Positions 43,804 through 51,629 of a stretch of DNA of 64,000 bases are shown here, one piece after another; positions within the stretch are counted from its first letter, which is position 1; every line of letters starts with the position of its first letter. Below the pieces are notes generated by a model that made no database searches, was not told the origin of the DNA, and worked only from the letters and a program-made list of their open reading frames with translations. The stretch lies in assembly GCA_947167515.1 (NCBI GenBank), contig CAMVIM010000021.1:1-64000 (forward strand), read 5' to 3'. A program made the translations under genes and the position numbers. Origin of the DNA: an uncultured Prevotellaceae bacterium. GTDB lineage: Bacteria > Bacteroidota > Bacteroidia > Bacteroidales > Bacteroidaceae.

Positions 43804-44688
43804 ATGAAAATCACCATACTTGGCAGCGGAACCTCATGCGGAGTACCTCAGATAGGGTGCCCCTGTGAGGTGTGTACTTCCACCGACCCAAGAGATAAGC
43901 GACTGCGCACATCGGCACTCGTCGAGGTGGGCGGCAAGCAAATTCTGATGGATTGCGGCCCCGACTTTCGTCAGCAGATGCTCCGCATTGACTTCAAACC
44001 TCTCGATGCAGTGCTCATCACGCATGAGCACTACGACCACGTGGGAGGACTCGATGACTTGCGACCCTACAGCATTTTTGGCGATGTGGATGTCTATACA
44101 GAGAAATTCTGTGGCGACCATCTGGTGGAGCGCATCCCTTATTGCTTCACTCCCAAGGAAAAACGCTATCCAGGAGTGCCTGCGCTGAACATCATTGAGA
44201 TTGAGCCGCACGTGCCTTTCGTCATCAAAGATGCGGAAAAGGAGCCGATGGCATCGGAGTATCTGGAGGATGCCGTGAAGATGAAGCGCCAACAGGTGTG
44301 GGACGAACTGAATCGTTTGAAGAAACAGGGTGGGCAAGAGGCTCACTATGACGTGGAAATCATGCCCATCCGTGTCATGCACGGCCGTTTGCCCATCGTG
44401 GGGTTCCGCATTGAGAACTTTGCCTACATCACCGACATGAAGACCATCCCTGACGAAGAACTGCCCTACTTGCAGGGAGTGGAATACATGATAGTCAACG
44501 GTTTGCGCCACAAGGAGCATCCCAGTCACCAAAGCATTGAAGATGCCATCGCCTTCGCACAGAAGTTAGGTGTGAAAGAGGCGTGGCTTGTCCACATGAG
44601 CCATCACATCAAGCCCCATGCCATCGAAGAGAAGACCCTGCCCGCAGGCATCCATCTTGCCTACGACGGTGAAGTGATAGAGTTCTAA
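43804..44688 (+). CDS. MBL-fold metallo-hydrolase (PhnP-like)
   Basis: A 294-residue metallo-beta-lactamase-fold enzyme. Metal ligands are visible as THEHYDHVGGLDDLRP (H74, H76, D78, H79), with later histidines in MHGRLPIVGF and VHMSHH. An N-terminal cysteine set (SCGVPQIGCPCEVC) is typical of PhnP-like phosphodiesterases, where it binds structural zinc. Those enzymes cleave cyclic phosphodiesters, but the substrate here is not clear. It starts 4 bp after murB and probably shares its transcript. Confidence 0.85.
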   Translation: MKITILGSGTSCGVPQIGCPCEVCTSTDPRDKRLRTSALVEVGGKQILMDCGPDFRQQMLRIDFKPLDAVLITHEHYDHVGGLDDLRPYSIFGDVDVYTEKFCGDHLVERIPYCFTPKEKRYPGVPALNIIEIEPHVPFVIKDAEKEPMASEYLEDAVKMKRQQVWDELNRLKKQGGQEAHYDVEIMPIRVMHGRLPIVGFRIENFAYITDMKTIPDEELPYLQGVEYMIVNGLRHKEHPSHQSIEDAIAFAQKLGVKEAWLVHMSHHIKPHAIEEKTLPAGIHLAYDGEVIEF

Positions 44689-44779: not shown

Positions 44780-45004
44780 ATGTCAAGAGAACAAAAAAAC
44801 GCTATAAGCTACACTGTTGCTCTCATCAGTGAATTCGCTTCCTATTTCGGTATTCGCCCCCAACAGGCTTATGCCTACTTGAAGCGTTTCAAGGGTCTTG
44901 CCCATTTAGAAAATCACTATGGTGTTCTGCACACTCAATCCTTCTCAGACACCATTCATTCTCTTGCTCAAGTGTGTGCCAATCATGGAGGAATGTTGAG
45001 ATGA
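44780..45004 (+). CDS. DUF3791 protein, first copy (putative antitoxin)
   Basis: A 74-residue helical protein of the DUF3791 family: ISYTVALISEFASYFGIRPQ, AYAYLKRFKGLAHL, then YGVLHTQSFSDTIHSLAQ, where the Tyr and the HTQS stretch are the family signature. DUF3791 proteins are often found beside DUF3990 proteins. Its stop overlaps the next start by four bases (ATGA at 45001). The role of a small partner or antitoxin is inferred from size and context only. Confidence 0.75.
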   Translation: MSREQKNAISYTVALISEFASYFGIRPQQAYAYLKRFKGLAHLENHYGVLHTQSFSDTIHSLAQVCANHGGMLR

Positions 45005-45483
45005 TTAAATTGTATCATGGCTCCAATGTGAAGATAGGGGTGCCCGACCTCCTGCATTCCAAACCTTTCAAAGACTTTGGAAGTGGATTCTATCTCTCGG
45101 CAGATGAACAACAAGCATGGAATATGGCATATCAAAAGGTAAGTCAAACGCAAACAGGAAAGGCCGAGGTGTGCGAATTTTTGTTTGACGAGACGATTAT
45201 GTGGTCAAACGAGCTGAAAATCCAGACCTTTTCGGATTATAGCGAAGAATGGGCACAATTCGTACTAAAAAACCGTGATAAGAACATGCTCCATCCTGTA
45301 CACGATTACGATATTGTTTATGGTCCAATAGCCGATGATGGAGTCACATACCAATTGCGTCGTTATCAAGGAGGTGTCATCTCCATACAACGCTTGGTAG
45401 AAGAACTTAAATACGCCAAGGGAATAACGTTTCAGTACTTCTTTGGTTCTGAACGTGCATTACAACAATTGAAAAGATTATGA
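45001..45483 (+). CDS. DUF3990 protein, probable ADP-ribosyltransferase-fold toxin
   Basis: A 160-residue protein of the DUF3990 family. The N-terminus KLYHGSNVKI (H6) and DFGSGFYLSADEQQAWNMA (Y31) have the spacing of the first two ADP-ribosyltransferase motifs; a third region near the C-terminus (TFQYFFGSERALQQL) would supply the Glu/Gln motif. Such enzymes transfer ADP-ribose from NAD+ to a protein or nucleic acid target. It overlaps the flanking DUF3791 genes by four bases on each side, so all three products are translationally coupled. A cytoplasmic toxin role is an inference; target unknown. Start at 45001, not the internal out-of-family start 27 bp upstream. Confidence 0.7.
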   Translation: MIKLYHGSNVKIGVPDLLHSKPFKDFGSGFYLSADEQQAWNMAYQKVSQTQTGKAEVCEFLFDETIMWSNELKIQTFSDYSEEWAQFVLKNRDKNMLHPVHDYDIVYGPIADDGVTYQLRRYQGGVISIQRLVEELKYAKGITFQYFFGSERALQQLKRL

Positions 45484-45716
45484 CCAACAAACTCAATCCT
45501 TTGCAAATACAAGTCATGAAAGACGACCTCTGTGTAGAACTCACAGAGGAGTTAATGAATGAATTCCACTATACCCCACAAGAGGCATTGGATGTCTTGT
45601 ACACTTCGGAGACCTTCAATCGCTTGCAAGACAATGCCACAGGACTCTACTACCAAAGTGCAGGTTATGTCTATTCATTCTTGCAGAATGAGATACGAAC
45701 AGCGAAAGTGGAATAG
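45480..45716 (+). CDS. DUF3791 protein, second copy
   Basis: A 78-residue protein with the same layout as the first DUF3791 gene: VMKDDLCVELTEELMNEF, EALDVLYTSETFNRLQD, then GLYYQSAGYVYSFLQNE, where the expected HTQ is replaced by YYQSA. It is divergent enough from copy one to suggest an old duplication or separate acquisition. ATGA overlap with the DUF3990 gene at 45480. Its 3' end lies against the broken antitoxin gene on the other strand. Confidence 0.68.
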   Translation: MTNKLNPLQIQVMKDDLCVELTEELMNEFHYTPQEALDVLYTSETFNRLQDNATGLYYQSAGYVYSFLQNEIRTAKVE

Positions 45717-45919
45717 CCCAATCCATCCATGTCGTCACCAACCACAGTAGGCTTGTTGATAGGGAAATGCTCCTTTTCATACGCAATCACAATGTCAGAC
45801 ATCAGTGTCAACTCCACAGCGTTACGATTGTTCGCAGGTGTGTTGTCATCCACCAATGGCAAGAGTTCCTCGATTCTCTGAAGTGCGAACTCATATTGCT
45901 CTTTGGTCGTGTTGTTCAT
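45671..45919 (-). pseudogene. Truncated HigA-type antitoxin
   Basis: The first 58 residues (MNNTTKEQYEFALQRIEELL, then LVDDNTP and EKEHFPINKPT) match the N-terminus of COG5499/HigA-type antitoxins. The usual helix-turn-helix domain that should follow is missing: after KPT the frame runs into the antisense of the second DUF3791 gene and stops at 45671. The break is near 45745, so the gene lost its DNA-binding half when the neighbouring cassette arrived or through deletion. Confidence 0.7.
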
Positions 45920-45931
45920 AATCAGTCCTCC

Positions 45932-46033
45932 TTATATGGTTGAAGCGTCAATTTTATCATACTCGGCATGCGTGCCTACAAATCGGATGAAAATGTGTTC
46001 AATAGTAAACTTTTTTTCAGCAAACAAATTCAT
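45932..46033 (-). pseudogene. Remnant of a HigB-type toxin (C-terminal 33 codons)
   Basis: Translation gives IEHIFIRFVGTHAEYDKIDA and a stop; this is the C-terminal strand set of HigB-family mRNA-cutting toxins. The N-terminal two-thirds is missing: the fragment starts directly after the stop of the WYL gene. It lies 12 bp before the HigA fragment on the same strand, the normal toxin-first order of higBA. Confidence 0.68.
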
Positions 46034-46936
46034 TTAATATGCCTTCAGCATCTTCTTCACGATTTCCTTCATTTCCTCTCTCACGCTTTCAGGCTCCAGT
46101 ACCTCCAGCTTCTCCCTGTGCCAAAGCAGTTGTTGGTAGAAGTTGTAGCAAGGTTCCAGATGATACTCAAAAATGCTCCAGCCTTTCCCTTTCTCCACTT
46201 CTCGTTGTGACTCATGGATGGGCAAGGCGCGCACATAGTTCACTTGTGCGCCCAACACCTTGATGCGGATACGTTCAGGCTTCGGCTCATCGCTGTGATT
46301 GATACCGAAACAATCCTTGAAATAATCCTTCACCGTGATTTGCTTCGAAGGCAACATCTTCTCCTCTGTCAGCCACATGCTGCTCATCCTCTCCAAAGCG
46401 AAGACCGATTGCCCATGATGAGGATTCAATGGCTCAGCCACCAGATACCAACGCTGTTCCCAAGTTCTCAGGAAGTAAGGGATGATGGTCAGATGCTTTT
46501 TTGATTGCTTGTTGTACGACCAGTAGTCGCACTCCAACCCACGCTGCTGGTCAATCGCCTCCAGTACAGTCTGCACATTCTCCACTCCGTTGGGAGCATC
46601 CATCAGCATGATACGGTCACGATGTTTCAGCGCCAGTTCCGTCATGCCCTCAATGTGATAGGCTGACAGAAGGTAGTCATACAGCGAATCCTCCTCACCA
46701 TACAGATTCTCGTCTTTCACCAGTTCATACTTTCCTATGCTCGGATTGAACTCCACATAACAAGGGAACGTCTCAGCAATAAACTCTTTATACCTCGCAA
46801 ACGTGCGTGGCAAAATATCTCCATCATACAGCGACGAGTATCGAAACCACTCGTTGATTTCCTTAAGGCTCAACGCCCCCTTGCGTTCCAGCAAGTGGAT
46901 GATGTATAGGCATTTCTTGAGTTTGGACATAAGCAA
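46034..46936 (-). CDS. WYL-domain transcriptional regulator
   Basis: A 300-residue regulator. The N-terminal 90 residues are helical and winged-helix-like (LKKCLYIIHLLERKGALSLK), and the WYL domain covers about 125-225 with LTIIPYFLRTWEQRWYLVAE. A C-terminal WCX-like part follows (ERIRIKVLGAQVNYVRALPIH). WYL regulators bind nucleic acid or nucleotide ligands and often control defence genes, for example BrxR and CapW. The gene is the last of the leftward array, 17 bp after the zinc-ribbon/membrane protein gene. An in-frame ATG 6 bp later is an alternative start. Confidence 0.88.
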   Translation of the reverse strand: MLMSKLKKCLYIIHLLERKGALSLKEINEWFRYSSLYDGDILPRTFARYKEFIAETFPCYVEFNPSIGKYELVKDENLYGEEDSLYDYLLSAYHIEGMTELALKHRDRIMLMDAPNGVENVQTVLEAIDQQRGLECDYWSYNKQSKKHLTIIPYFLRTWEQRWYLVAEPLNPHHGQSVFALERMSSMWLTEEKMLPSKQITVKDYFKDCFGINHSDEPKPERIRIKVLGAQVNYVRALPIHESQREVEKGKGWSIFEYHLEPCYNFYQQLLWHREKLEVLEPESVREEMKEIVKKMLKAY

Positions 46937-46953
46937 ATAGGATTAAACCGTTA

Positions 46954-48585
46954 TCAATCCAAGTCGTTTTCATCCAAGGACATTTGTTCTATTTCTTCGG
47001 ATAGCTCGGTTATGCAACTGTCAATGAGTCCTTCTGCTTTTGAAACAATGACAGTTTTTCTTTTTCTGATTGCTTTCTCAAAATAGTATTCCATACGGGC
47101 GCAGGCATAATCCACACGTTTGAAATCATCTCCCTCTGGACCGCCCACAGCATACATCGCAACAAGAAATTCTGGATCTATAACCTTGTAGTGAACAAGG
47201 TTGGCATCTACATAGTCAAATTCCTCTTGCGATTGAAGAAGGTATTCGTTACTTAGGCGAATTTTTGCTAGCAGAACGAGCCGGCTCATCTTGATTGCAT
47301 CATCTTCGTGTAATTGATTACCGACCCATTGTGCTCCTTGTTCGAATACAAAGCCTCCTACTAGTCCGCCAATAGGGATTCCCCATCCCCCCTGATTACT
47401 AGTAGCTATACCACCTAACCACATTCCGATTGTAGCTCCTGTGGCTGTTGCACCGCCTACACATAAGTTTTTAATATATTGCTGATTGGAAACTTTTCCT
47501 TTTATAAGTGATACGGTGTCTGGGATACTGGTTATTACGAATAAGATGGTTTGTGTGATGACATCTGTTCTTATATTCTTTATTAGTACATTTTTAGCAG
47601 CTGCACCAGTAACATTTTTCTTTATTAAGGATTTGGCCAACTTTGTTATTACTTTTTTCCCAAAATCGGTCTTCCAGATATTATCAACCGCATATTTTGC
47701 ACCCTTTGTGGTCAGAGCCGCGAATTTTCTTCCCACGGATGTCCTAATCAGTTGCATATATGCAACATGGCTGCCTAAAGTAATACATCCTGATTGTAGA
47801 CCCGCAAGTAGCGACATCTTGACGGCATCGGAAAAGGACAATCCATTCTTTTTATTGAAGATGAGCGTTATGCCAAGATTGATTGTGAAGGAAATGCCCA
47901 TAGTGCCAAGTGCGATAACACTTCCAGTCTTGATGTCAAATAATAGAGAATCAATGTTGCCTGCCTTGGCAATATTTTTCGCTTGTTTGTATGTGTAGTC
48001 TCCTTTCTTAATGATGTCTTTGGCTTTTTGAGGGTCATCTATGCCGACGTTCTTCATGTCGCCATGCTCAATGCGCTCTTCCAAGCGTCTTATAGCATCT
48101 TCATATTGGTCTTTGGGAACTTCTAGAATCTGGGGCCCGCCATTGTTGTCTACGTACTTATAGTTGCCTCCCGCACCTTCAAAAGCCGCATCTACACTTC
48201 CTTTTGCGGTCTGATAATACTTTGTCTGTATCCATTGTCCGTTGGTGATTCGGTCTGCTCCGTTCAGAGTATTGCTTCGTCCAACCTGTTCCACCTTCAT
48301 GCCCCTTAAGCGTTCATTGAAGGCATTTGCGTCTTCAGCTGCAAAGCCTTGTGCAGACCTTGTGCGGTATTTTGTCCATTGAAGATTACGTTCAATTTGA
48401 GCAGCATCCAATATGGCTCCAGTTTGTGTGACAATTGTTTTATGGTCAGTCTTTGGTTTTTGAGGTTTCTCTTCTGTGTCTATTCCCATTTCGAATAGTT
48501 CACAACACTTGCCACATTTGGGGCAAATCAGTTTGTGTGCCTTCATCTCGGTTCCACATGAAGGACAATAATGTATGTATGACAT
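46954..48585 (-). CDS. Zinc-ribbon and membrane-segment protein of unknown function
   Basis: A 543-residue protein I cannot assign. Residues 7-24 form a zinc ribbon (CPSC and CPKC). Residues about 78-215 form a domain with NGADRITNGQWIQTKYY (D111, Q120, K122), EVPKDQYEDAIRRLEERI and YTYKQAKNIAKAGNIDSL. The D and QxK spacing recalls QxK-type PD-(D/E)xK nucleases such as Mrr, an inference. Four hydrophobic stretches follow: about 221-243, 255-280, 342-360 and 375-421, the last rich in Gly-x3-Gly patterns that suit membrane insertion. The C-terminus is helical and acidic. It is 11 bp after the YaaW-like gene and 17 bp before the WYL regulator. AT-rich. Confidence 0.6.
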   Translation of the reverse strand: MSYIHYCPSCGTEMKAHKLICPKCGKCCELFEMGIDTEEKPQKPKTDHKTIVTQTGAILDAAQIERNLQWTKYRTRSAQGFAAEDANAFNERLRGMKVEQVGRSNTLNGADRITNGQWIQTKYYQTAKGSVDAAFEGAGGNYKYVDNNGGPQILEVPKDQYEDAIRRLEERIEHGDMKNVGIDDPQKAKDIIKKGDYTYKQAKNIAKAGNIDSLLFDIKTGSVIALGTMGISFTINLGITLIFNKKNGLSFSDAVKMSLLAGLQSGCITLGSHVAYMQLIRTSVGRKFAALTTKGAKYAVDNIWKTDFGKKVITKLAKSLIKKNVTGAAAKNVLIKNIRTDVITQTILFVITSIPDTVSLIKGKVSNQQYIKNLCVGGATATGATIGMWLGGIATSNQGGWGIPIGGLVGGFVFEQGAQWVGNQLHEDDAIKMSRLVLLAKIRLSNEYLLQSQEEFDYVDANLVHYKVIDPEFLVAMYAVGGPEGDDFKRVDYACARMEYYFEKAIRKRKTVIVSKAEGLIDSCITELSEEIEQMSLDENDLD

Positions 48586-48596
48586 GGTTTGGCGGC

Positions 48597-49217
48597 TTAA
48601 TTAATATCGTTTGTAAAACTTGAATTATTCTCCGTGAGGATACGCAAAAATGCTATATGGAGTACACAAGGTATAATGACTCTATATGAAGCACCTCTTA
48701 AAACGCCATCTGTATATTTGTTGTAGTCCCTGACAAGTTCCAATGAAATCTGTTCAATATCTCTCATCGTCAATTTCTCAAACTCTAAATCCCAAATCGT
48801 TTTCAACAGTTCTATCTCCAACCTTTCTGTAGAAATTAGAGGATGATAATTGACTTCTAGTTTGTCGCACACTTTTTTCAGAACATCTCGATACTGGCTT
48901 CCTGAAATCAGCATGTTGGTGCCGAATCCTTGTATTTCTTCTATAATATTCGGTACCAAACGTTTTGTGTGATATTTGTAATTAGACTCAAAATATTTTT
49001 GTTTGGATAGGTTTTCTCGCAGTCTTTTTTTCCCATCTTGGGGATCATAGACTATCCACCCTACCAGTGGCTGCAATTGCTCATTTGAACAATTGCTCAA
49101 AAAAACCAGATCGGAATCGACTTTTACTTCTTTCTTCTTTTGAGAATTAGGTGCCGAATCCTGACTCACCAGGATGTTGACCCCTTTTGCGATAATCTCG
49201 CTTGTCTTCTTTAGCAT
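48597..49217 (-). CDS. YaaW-like (UPF0174/DUF3944) protein
   Basis: A 206-residue protein. Residues about 34-60 (DSDLVFLSNCSNEQLQPLV) are the DUF3944 motif, and the C-terminal SYRVIIPCVLHIAFLRIL matches the end of E. coli YaaW as I remember it. The middle (EEIQGFGTNMLISGSQYRDV) also fits. YaaW proteins are uncharacterised; the C-terminal helix may touch membrane. The first 30 residues are an extra extension. The gene is 11 bp before the zinc-ribbon/membrane protein gene and 277 bp after the SprT-like gene, with a TACATTTG -7 box (49443-49450) in that gap. Confidence 0.7.
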   Translation of the reverse strand: MLKKTSEIIAKGVNILVSQDSAPNSQKKKEVKVDSDLVFLSNCSNEQLQPLVGWIVYDPQDGKKRLRENLSKQKYFESNYKYHTKRLVPNIIEEIQGFGTNMLISGSQYRDVLKKVCDKLEVNYHPLISTERLEIELLKTIWDLEFEKLTMRDIEQISLELVRDYNKYTDGVLRGASYRVIIPCVLHIAFLRILTENNSSFTNDIN

Positions 49218-49277
49218 AGTTTAGGTTGTTAAATTAACATACTAAAAGGCACGGCTCCATCACCGTAGCATCTATGC

Positions 49278-49368
49278 ACCGCCAAGCGCCTTGCCCCTAC
49301 AGCAACAGTAGTCCGTGCCTACACACGGACACTGGTTGTCTGTCTTCGGGGCGTTGAGTTTTGGCGGT
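49278..49368 (-). ncRNA. Structured leader or small RNA candidate
   Basis: In the 277-bp gap between the SprT-like and YaaW-like genes, 49278-49285 and 49361-49368 pair over 8 bp, and 49293-49297 with 49348-49352 over 5 bp, separated by equal 8-nt internal loops. Inside is a perfect 7-bp hairpin at 49311-49330. AGGCACGG recurs at 49247 and 49479 outside. Downstream of a TACATTTG box, it would be in the 5' leader of the YaaW-like gene. A regulatory RNA or a recombination site are both possible. Confidence 0.35.
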
Positions 49369-49494
49369 TTCAGATGCCCAATAGACACCAATGTCTTTTT
49401 CTTTTCGAAATGTTGTTGCAAGTGTTGAGACACATGCACGGGGCAAATGTACAACATATTTCTGAAAAGTCTATCATTAGGCACGGACTTTTTC

Positions 49495-50064
49495 TCATTT
49501 GATGCTATTTTTTCTTTTCTTCTTCCTTTTGATTTGAGTGGATTTTTCTTTTTCCAGCCCAATCTCAATGGGACGAGGTGGAATTGTACTTCTTTCGATG
49601 TCATTTCCATAAATGTCATAATCCAATGTTTGCTGGCTGGGTTCCCACTGGTCTATTTCAAGATGGTATGTTTTATTGAGAAATCTCCGAACTCTTTGAA
49701 AGAACTTTCCATGCATCCTTTTTTCTCGGAGATGTAGCACCGTGTCAACGTACATGTGTATCATCTCATGGAGAATAGTGTCCCGAATCCAGCAATCATC
49801 ATAGTATGTCAATCGTATGTTTAACGAAATGATGGGATAATTTATATTGAATCTGTACTTTGCTCCTTTGATCCCTATATAACGTCCCCAAGTATTTATG
49901 TATGGGGGTTCAGATTTGAAACGACACTCTCCAAGTTCTCTATTGAAATACAATTCATTGTATTCATGGAACTTCCTTTGCAGCAGTTCGTCCGTTATTT
50001 CGTGGTAGGGAACTCCCAACACTCTTACGGGATGCTTCAATCTATAAGGATCAACTTCTCCCAT
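49495..50064 (-). CDS. SprT-like metallopeptidase-domain protein
   Basis: A 189-residue cytoplasmic protein with a SprT-like zinc metallopeptidase domain: LHEMIHMY (H99, E100, H103) and the third ligand H118 in MHGKFFQRV. The N-terminal helix LLQRKFHEYNELYFNRELG and strand CRFKSE also fit. SprT/Spartan-like proteins can cleave proteins crosslinked to DNA; the bacterial ones are poorly studied. The zinc-finger tail of Spartan is absent and the C-terminus is a basic run (KRKKKRKNS). It is 33 bp after the 49-residue small gene and leads the array. Confidence 0.8.
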   Translation of the reverse strand: MGEVDPYRLKHPVRVLGVPYHEITDELLQRKFHEYNELYFNRELGECRFKSEPPYINTWGRYIGIKGAKYRFNINYPIISLNIRLTYYDDCWIRDTILHEMIHMYVDTVLHLREKRMHGKFFQRVRRFLNKTYHLEIDQWEPSQQTLDYDIYGNDIERSTIPPRPIEIGLEKEKSTQIKRKKKRKNSIK

Positions 50065-50097
50065 TGCTGGTTCGTTCTAATTTGGTTATACTTTTGT

Positions 50098-50247
50098 TTA
50101 ACTCTCTTTCTTCGCATTTGGGCAGATTTTCTCTCTGACTTTAGCGAATTGAATCTTTGCCTTATCTATCAGGCCAGCTTTGTTTGCCTCGTTGTAAAGA
50201 GCCAATGTGGCTACTGCCACCCAAAGGGTACGAATCACTTTGTCCAT
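50098..50247 (-). CDS. Small 49-residue protein at the head of the accessory array
   Basis: An intact 49-codon frame (MDKVIRTLWVAVATLALYNE as the first 20 residues, then a charged C-terminus ending CPNAKKES). Residues about 4-17 are hydrophobic and may be a membrane anchor. It starts about 38 bp past a -7-like box (TTACTTTG, 50285-50292 on the minus strand) and ends 33 bp before the SprT-like gene. Codon use is AT-rich like its neighbours. No family recognised; such small first genes can be leader peptides or antitoxin-type partners. Confidence 0.5.
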   Translation of the reverse strand: MDKVIRTLWVAVATLALYNEANKAGLIDKAKIQFAKVREKICPNAKKES

Positions 50248-50322: not shown

Positions 50323-50531
50323 ACCAGCAAACTTTTCCCCAATTTTTTCTTGAAAGGGGCTAAACAATTCGAATCTTTGTAAAAATCCCCACTGACTTCA
50401 TAGCCAATGGGGCAATAATGTCAGTAAAATAACCTATTGAAGATGTAACTCACATCTACTACAAAGCGTACGGCACAACGACTACGGTGTGTACGATAGA
50501 ACGACAACCTTGTGTAGCCGTTCTCAATTTC

Positions 50532-50613
50532 AATTCTAAAGTTTGAGTTGTAAAAATCAAAGTTTGAGTTGCAAAACCCAAACCTTGATTTTTACAACTC
50601 AAACTTTAGAATT
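50532..50613. repeat. Perfect 29-bp inverted repeat
   Basis: Arms 50532-50560 and 50585-50613 are exact reverse complements around a 24-nt loop. The loop starts with another near copy of part of the left arm (GTTTGAGTTG), so the element is built of repeated units. It may fold as a long hairpin if transcribed. Confidence 0.9.
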
Positions 50614-50713
50614 AAAGTCGATATACTTGTTAGACTGAAGTGGATGTGCCGTTGACACGTGAATGCTTGTTGAGGCATCATTCATTTTCTTATTACTACT
50701 CAACTTTCGGGAG

Positions 50714-51008: not shown

Positions 51009-51629
51009 TCAGTATTCTTTGTAGAGGTTGATGTATTCCATCACGCTGTCGATGGCTTCCTGACGCATGTCGAGATGGAGAGAGCCGTCGTGGAGAACGT
51101 CGTTCATTACTTTATATACCATGCTCCAATCGCTGTCGAGATAGACTTGGGCGTCGATGAGCGATGTGATGAATGCGACGGAGAAACTTTTGTTTTTGTC
51201 TTTCTTGACGGCTTTGTGACCTAATTCCTGCGCTTCCTTCACATCGAAGTAATTGCTCATGGCTTTGGCGTAGGCATAGACGGCGAGTGTGCCGGCATCC
51301 AGTTTTTGGGCTAATTTTTCGGGGGTGTTTGCTTTGTGGCGTTTTGACAGATACTCAAAGAGTTGGTCTCCAGATGTCTTCCCTTCAAAATTCCAGCTGA
51401 TGGCATTGATGACTGCCAGACGCACGTCGATGGGCGATGCCTTGTCTGCCAGAAAGTCGAGCATCGAGACGGGGATGGTTGTGTCGCTTTCGTTGACTAG
51501 TTTTTGTGCCATCTGCACCATCGGGTGGTCGTTGTATTTCTCTGCAAAATCGGTGGACGTGAGGGGGGAATCTGCCCATGTGAGTACACACGAAAGGGTG
51601 AGCAGCATGGCTGTGAAAAGGCGTTTCAT
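51009..51629 (-). CDS. Hypothetical exported protein
   Basis: A 206-residue protein with a signal peptide ending TWAD (about residue 20) and no lipobox. The mature part is helical (MVQMAQKLVNESDTT, AVYAYAKAMSNYFDVKEAQE) without cysteines, probably periplasmic. I recognise no family. It has its own terminator and lies 47 bp after the DUF6935-like gene on the same strand, so the two are probably co-transcribed. Confidence 0.7.
   Translation of the reverse strand: MKRLFTAMLLTLSCVLTWADSPLTSTDFAEKYNDHPMVQMAQKLVNESDTTIPVSMLDFLADKASPIDVRLAVINAISWNFEGKTSGDQLFEYLSKRHKANTPEKLAQKLDAGTLAVYAYAKAMSNYFDVKEAQELGHKAVKKDKNKSFSVAFITSLIDAQVYLDSDWSMVYKVMNDVLHDGSLHLDMRQEAIDSVMEYINLYKEY

Follow-up and report, generated by a model that had tools for sequence, protein, structure and literature searches.

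A three-gene operon in the genome of an uncultured Prevotellaceae bacterium probably encodes an anti-phage system of Juk-type layout, in which a WYL regulator would control a JukA-like sensor candidate and a putative membrane-associated nuclease serving as its effector, a reading that we favour with modest confidence. The operon lies in the window analysed here, a stretch of 64,000 nucleotides (contig C21 of a 3.68-Mb genome; GenBank CAMVIM010000021.1, positions 1 to 64,000). Juk (jumbo phage killer) acts at an early stage of infection to block jumbo phages that form a nucleus. The initial annotation of this DNA had described five leftward genes at 46034–50247 as an undescribed defence-type array under a WYL regulator. 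All five open reading frames (ORFs) are present in the ORF listing, with an SprT-like peptidase, a DUF3944 protein, a protein combining a weak zinc ribbon with glycine-rich helices, and a WYL and WCX protein identified among them, and the defence assignment gained support from a match to the PADLOC JukA profile and from the site, a hotspot that holds other defence genes in relatives. The five-gene array itself was rejected, because only the WYL, effector and JukA genes recur together (in two other loci, without the SprT-like gene or the 49-amino-acid ORF) and because SprT-like genes are common and the window's is not related in sequence to that of the JukA locus in genome G063. Nor is the set wholly undescribed, JukA being an already published sensor. 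The genes of the operon, with parts of the effector candidate given by residue, are as follows.

46034..46936 (likely start 46930), reverse strand: WYL-WCX regulator (PF13280 1.5e-10, PF25583 6e-11, both above the Pfam cut-off)
46954..48585, reverse strand: effector candidate, 543 amino acids (alignment A1, full model, domain model, VIA rows)
Effector residues ~5–31: weak zinc ribbon (Pfam, sub-threshold)
Effector residues ~78–206: predicted PD-(D/E)XK-type domain (alignment and model)
Effector residues ~211–448: predicted glycine-rich, hydrophobic helices (full model)
Effector residues ~453–537: predicted C-terminal helical part (full model)
48597..49217, reverse strand: JukA-like (DUF3944/YaaW) sensor candidate, 206 amino acids (PADLOC JukA, Pfam DUF3944, alignments)

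Sensor candidate, effector candidate and regulator

The 206-amino-acid protein matches the PADLOC JukA profile (9.3e-26 and 7.4e-25) over profile positions 4–143 of 245 only, and DUF3944 in Pfam (PF13099, 6.5e-9). Aligned with five relatives (from genomes G101, G058, G182, G063 and G604), it carries a 30-residue N-terminal extension. A hydrophobic C-terminal region found in the JukA proteins of those five genomes and of locus L025 is mostly missing from it, and we therefore class the operon as a Juk-type variant and not as a Juk system. The gap is in frame, with both ends of the protein retained, and a hydropathy scan is less clear-cut, one stretch (residues 176–194) rising above threshold in the window protein and none in the G604 protein. 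The patterns used found no JukA in viral contigs, and one weak match was obtained in phage records.

PD-(D/E)XK nucleases carry a conserved E...D...(E/Q)xK pattern, which the effector candidate matches as E...D...QxK: residues E84, D111, Q120 and K122 are invariant in all 19 rows of alignment A1 (from which L035, a relative split across two frames, and the weak L038 were left out), and their equivalents are invariant in 20 of 20 rows of the domain alignment. A fold search with the whole 543-residue model returned mostly helical chance matches, and the domain was therefore modelled by itself, giving a predicted local distance difference test (pLDDT) of 90.1 and a predicted template modelling score (pTM) of 0.85. 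The 31 best VIA rows for this isolated domain are PD-(D/E)XK-fold proteins (by title or known fold), including Hjc, VRR-NUC, FokI, HindIII, MspJI, Can2 and LmuA, and the first unrelated protein stands at rank 32. The predicted order of helices and strands, like the motif, resembles that of Hjc-, VRR-NUC- and LmuA-type nucleases; unlike them, the window protein has a long glycine-rich helical region. The earlier suggestion that a membrane-inserting glycine-rich part and a possible nuclease domain are combined is supported by a single protein with predicted hydrophobic helices and a predicted nuclease-type domain, whose zinc ribbon falls below the Pfam threshold (best 0.00038, scoring 20.6 bits where the cut-off is 25).

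With the window effector as query, a contig scan yielded nothing related, so the relative in G101 was used instead and led to 20 effector-family loci; Firmicutes, Proteobacteria and viral contigs are represented in the family too. Alignment A3, from which L035, L038 and L037 were left out, holds two of the seven viral loci (L060 and L061; L062 repeats L061, L063 is incomplete, and L057–L059 have no frame with the searched motif). The effector-family proteins tested have no Pfam or NCBIfam name, the window effector has no PADLOC match, and a sequence search for solved relatives of both JukA proteins and the effector gave none that was meaningful. JukB was rejected as the partner of the JukA-like protein, because no window protein matches it in PADLOC at E 0.1; a search of the whole genome with JukB (PDLC04114) was also empty and shows little, since it detected 0 of 14 controls.

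The regulator's listed start is a TTG at 46936, and an ATG at 46930 matches the start in its relatives; the protein has no Pfam helix-turn-helix match at E 1. Three of the 44 other genus genomes carry a relative, 93% (G063), 83% (G604) and 90% (G127) identical. The G127 copy is broken by one internal stop and lies alone beside amino-acid synthesis-type genes (L050, contig C66, 1630–2552).

Recurrence of the genes and the defence hotspot

In the window the three genes run in the order JukA, effector, WYL, with 11 base pairs (bp) between the first two and ~17–23 bp between the last two. All three occur together in two other Bacteroidales loci: L019 (the G101 contig), ordered WYL, effector, JukA and an M48 peptidase, and L025, ordered WYL (a reading frame of 199 amino acids), effector and JukA. 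A JukA match was found in 5 of 251 family genomes (the window's own included), with a second, partial match at a contig start in G182; a sixth JukA locus, in G604 (5.4e-45), was reached through its WYL gene. The expectation that WYL regulators accompany defence genes was borne out, the WYL gene standing recurrently beside JukA or the effector. It clusters with JukA in five of the six family JukA loci (the window, G063, G604, G101 and, ~7 kb away, G182); none was seen on the 8.7-kb G058 contig with JukA. Among the 20 effector loci it is present in seven (L019–L025), all of them among the eight Bacteroidales loci, adjoining the effector in L019, L023 and L025 and lying 4–5 kb off, with intervening genes, in L020, L021, L022 and L024. 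Five of the seven have a Pfam WYL match above cut-off; L021 and L022 fall slightly short of it for WYL and exceed the cut-off for WCX.

Other JukA loci pair the gene with other partners. G063 has a WYL gene 93% identical to the window's, JukA, M48, an SprT-like gene and a DnaB-type gene; G604 has JukA, M48, a PDC-M40B protein, a coiled-coil protein and the 83%-identical WYL gene; G182 has WYL, a 514-amino-acid protein with weak PDC-M09B matches (2e-7), PDC-M40B, PDC-M09A, JukA and M48; and on a Citrobacter plasmid WYL directly precedes JukA (404 amino acids, 2.4e-58), followed by PDC-M40B (6.2e-62). From these four loci we conclude that a WYL gene, JukA and an exchangeable hydrophobic effector form a repeated layout. 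JukA relatives on E. coli, Acinetobacter and Methylomonas plasmids have no WYL gene in their annotated surroundings, and the Citrobacter membrane protein, considered as a relative of the window effector, proved on comparison not to be one. The M48-type peptidase follows JukA in five of seven JukA loci (G063 and G604 by Pfam; G101, G182 and G058 by similarity or HExxH), the window and L025 being the other two.

Kinship to PADLOC candidates extends to the effector family, PDC-M09B weakly matching two long relatives (3.6e-5 and 4.8e-6) as well as the G182 protein; the window effector differs from both PDC-M09 and PDC-M40 in having no PADLOC match. The stretches between WYL and effector in L020 (3510–7766), L021 (3334–6071) and L022 (1439–5489) hold a PDC-M09A protein (L020 and L021) and then, judged by eye only, a histidine-kinase-type and response-regulator-type pair. 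On the Lactococcus plasmid pNCDO184A (L055, 5911–8795), a 'glycine zipper family protein', 38% identical over 77% of the G101 relative, stands directly after a WYL gene; unlike the window protein it has 665 amino acids, and the next gene encodes not JukA but a protein with a C-terminal BnzA-profile match (9.7e-14), perhaps making another two-gene defence unit. An 840-amino-acid effector relative lies amid GTPase, IrmA-type and DUF932 genes on a Klebsiella plasmid (L054, 4771–7293) and also in E. coli records.

The operon occupies a defence hotspot, bounded by core genes and bearing the remnant of a HigBA-like pair:

43804..44688, forward strand: left core flank, metallo-β-lactamase (MBL)-fold-type gene (hotspot comparison)
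45742..46012, reverse strand: HigBA-like remnant, the HigB 3' end and HigA 5' half (nucleotide identity to L117)
51009..51629, reverse strand: right core flank, uncharacterised gene (hotspot comparison)

At the thresholds used, the left flank gene was found in 42 and the right in 11 of 45 genus genomes; both lie on one contig in six genomes, the window's own included, and on different contigs in the other five. On a shared contig, the distance between them is 2, 2 and 25 bp in G608, G611 and G113; 1 kb in G081, where they enclose a HigBA-like pair (PADLOC PD-Lambda-2_A 9.5e-35, _B 4.6e-14); 6.3 kb in the window; and 13.5 kb in G063, where a type IIG restriction-methylation enzyme, a type II methyltransferase, AbiEi and AbiEii lie between them. 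The same G063 site (L113, contig C51, 3846–14958) also encodes one protein that matches Aga_Helical-REase in part and three that have no PADLOC match; the JukA locus of G063 is on another contig, away from the hotspot.

The left edge of the inserted operon is at 46012. The 89% DNA identity of the window WYL gene to that of G063 (L053) begins exactly there, and 45742–46012 shows 94.5% nucleotide identity to the HigBA-like genes in G081 (L117). The last HigB residues follow the WYL stop codon, from which we conclude that the remainder of HigB gave way to the operon. The HigA-like gene is also cut, at three genes (44780–45716; DUF3791, DUF3990 and DUF3791) that match the PADLOC candidate PDC-M13A/B/C (1.1e-20, 4.5e-43 and 2e-14), and in this sense the array does lie near toxin genes, as the initial annotation had it. 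The DNA identity of the WYL and HigBA genes exceeds that of core genes (78–81% for the flanks) and points to horizontal transfer.

Proposed mechanism, alternatives and relation to known systems

Passages of the review PMC13282480 describe JukA as detecting early phage proteins in the jumbo-phage vesicle and working with varied effectors, of which JukB makes pores, and as one of the most abundant immune proteins, with variable effectors. By analogy, the JukA-like protein of the window may sense an early structure of the infection, of which a phage protein at a membrane or at the vesicle that encloses injected DNA is the likeliest candidate, and recruit or activate the 543-amino-acid effector. 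The glycine-rich helices of the effector would insert into the sensed membrane and its PD-(D/E)XK-type domain would cut nucleic acid, in place of the pore formation ascribed to the published JukB; the WYL protein would restrain the operon until a signal arrives. A bolder version, which we regard as rather doubtful, is a vesicle-piercing nuclease, in which a JukA-type sensor would guide the helices and nuclease domain to sheltered phage DNA, so that DNA beyond the reach of ordinary nucleases would be cut; on this version the sensor's hydrophobic region could be dispensable because the membrane part would come from the effector.

Several points tell against a WYL-controlled, Juk-type operon with a nuclease effector. 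Of the 20 fetched loci of the effector family, only 2 have JukA; the structural scores behind the effector's nuclease fold are low; and the window JukA-like protein is without ~60–70 residues of its relatives' hydrophobic C-terminal region, with the last conserved motif kept. As to novelty, the JukA sensor and the idea of diverse JukA effectors are already known. The first point would fit a suicide module of abortive-infection or toxin type, as the initial annotation supposed, in which the effector, once the sensor or the WYL protein is triggered, would strike the host membrane and nucleic acids, still as defence, with no targeting of a phage vesicle: with 18 of 20 loci having no JukA, guidance to a phage structure would be unnecessary, and the effector adjoins toxin-type candidates (PDC-M13) and sits in the HigBA remnant. 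However, JukA and the effector are paired in three loci, and according to passages of PMC13282480 the target of published Juk is the early phage vesicle; we consider a suicide module possible but unlikely.

The shortened JukA, the truncated HigB and HigA and the missing M48 peptidase could also mark a decaying or partly dead island from which the operon is being lost. Yet the three reading frames are all uninterrupted and carry conserved motifs, the JukA gap preserves the frame and both ends, and the effector has every invariant residue, which makes decay improbable. A role outside defence, for instance in upkeep of the envelope or under stress, suggested by the older YaaW/MsyB annotation, by an NCBIfam match of the JukA-like protein to PRK10236 'acidic protein MsyB' far under cut-off (50 of 395 bits) and by JukA-family proteins in E. 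coli chromosomes, has similarly little probability given the patchy spread, the horizontal signature and the defence hotspot.

The favoured Juk-type operon shares with Juk a JukA-family protein beside a hydrophobic effector candidate, diverse JukA effectors having been reported in the passages of PMC13282480 drawn on, and differs in lacking a JukB match, in the effector's predicted PD-(D/E)XK-type domain, in the shortened JukA and in the WYL gene within the operon. What it adds is an effector family with weak PADLOC kinship only, the shortened JukA, putative WYL control and the hotspot. The JukA-like and effector pairing is not described in the portions of the literature searched (including PMC13282480, PMC12571901, PMC10896350 and PMC9122601), the primary Juk effector list lying outside the comparison. 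BrxR-type regulators likewise combine a WYL regulator with a defence setting, 48% of BrxR homologues accompanying known defence systems in the text drawn from PMC9122601; repression and DNA binding by the window protein are putative. If the proposed mechanism holds, a nuclease fused to hydrophobic helices would be an added effector type for JukA-type sensors, a family with no Pfam or NCBIfam name would gain a function, and the question would arise of whether bacteria can cut phage DNA enclosed in a vesicle; the hotspot is a place to seek further systems in the genus.

Neighbouring genes and repeats

Two further genes of the initial five-gene array lie upstream of the JukA-like gene:

49495..50064, reverse strand: SprT-like peptidase, 189 amino acids, putative member of the system (PF10263 6.6e-11, HExxH as HEMIH)
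50098..50247 including stop, reverse strand: 49-amino-acid ORF (ORF listing)

The tight spacing is limited to the last three genes, and a 277-bp gap separates the end of the SprT-like gene from the DUF3944 (JukA-like) gene, so the five leftward genes may form two transcription units. Of 301 family genomes, the window's own among them, 55 have an SprT-like gene, and none was found in phage records; the SprT-like gene may have been swapped in for the M48 peptidase in the window, and its protein is unlike in sequence to the SprT-like gene product of the G063 JukA locus. The 49-amino-acid ORF has no PADLOC or PHROG match and may be a leader gene or no gene at all.

The Bacteroides-type promoter box is TAnnTTTG, and a match before jukA at 49444–49451 was set aside as a weak promoter candidate, the window holding 34 such matches against 23 expected. 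Upstream of the operon, 50524–50621 forms a near-perfect 47-nucleotide inverted repeat (89%) built of a 21–23-nucleotide motif; it was considered as a WYL operator, and the 23-nucleotide motif recurs on three other contigs of the genome (C5, C35 and C50). The AT-richness ascribed to the five-gene set is real: the two 2-kb bins that cover it have 43.6% and 40.6% GC, and most other bins of the window have 49–59%. A still lower value, 37.2%, is found in the window's first bin.

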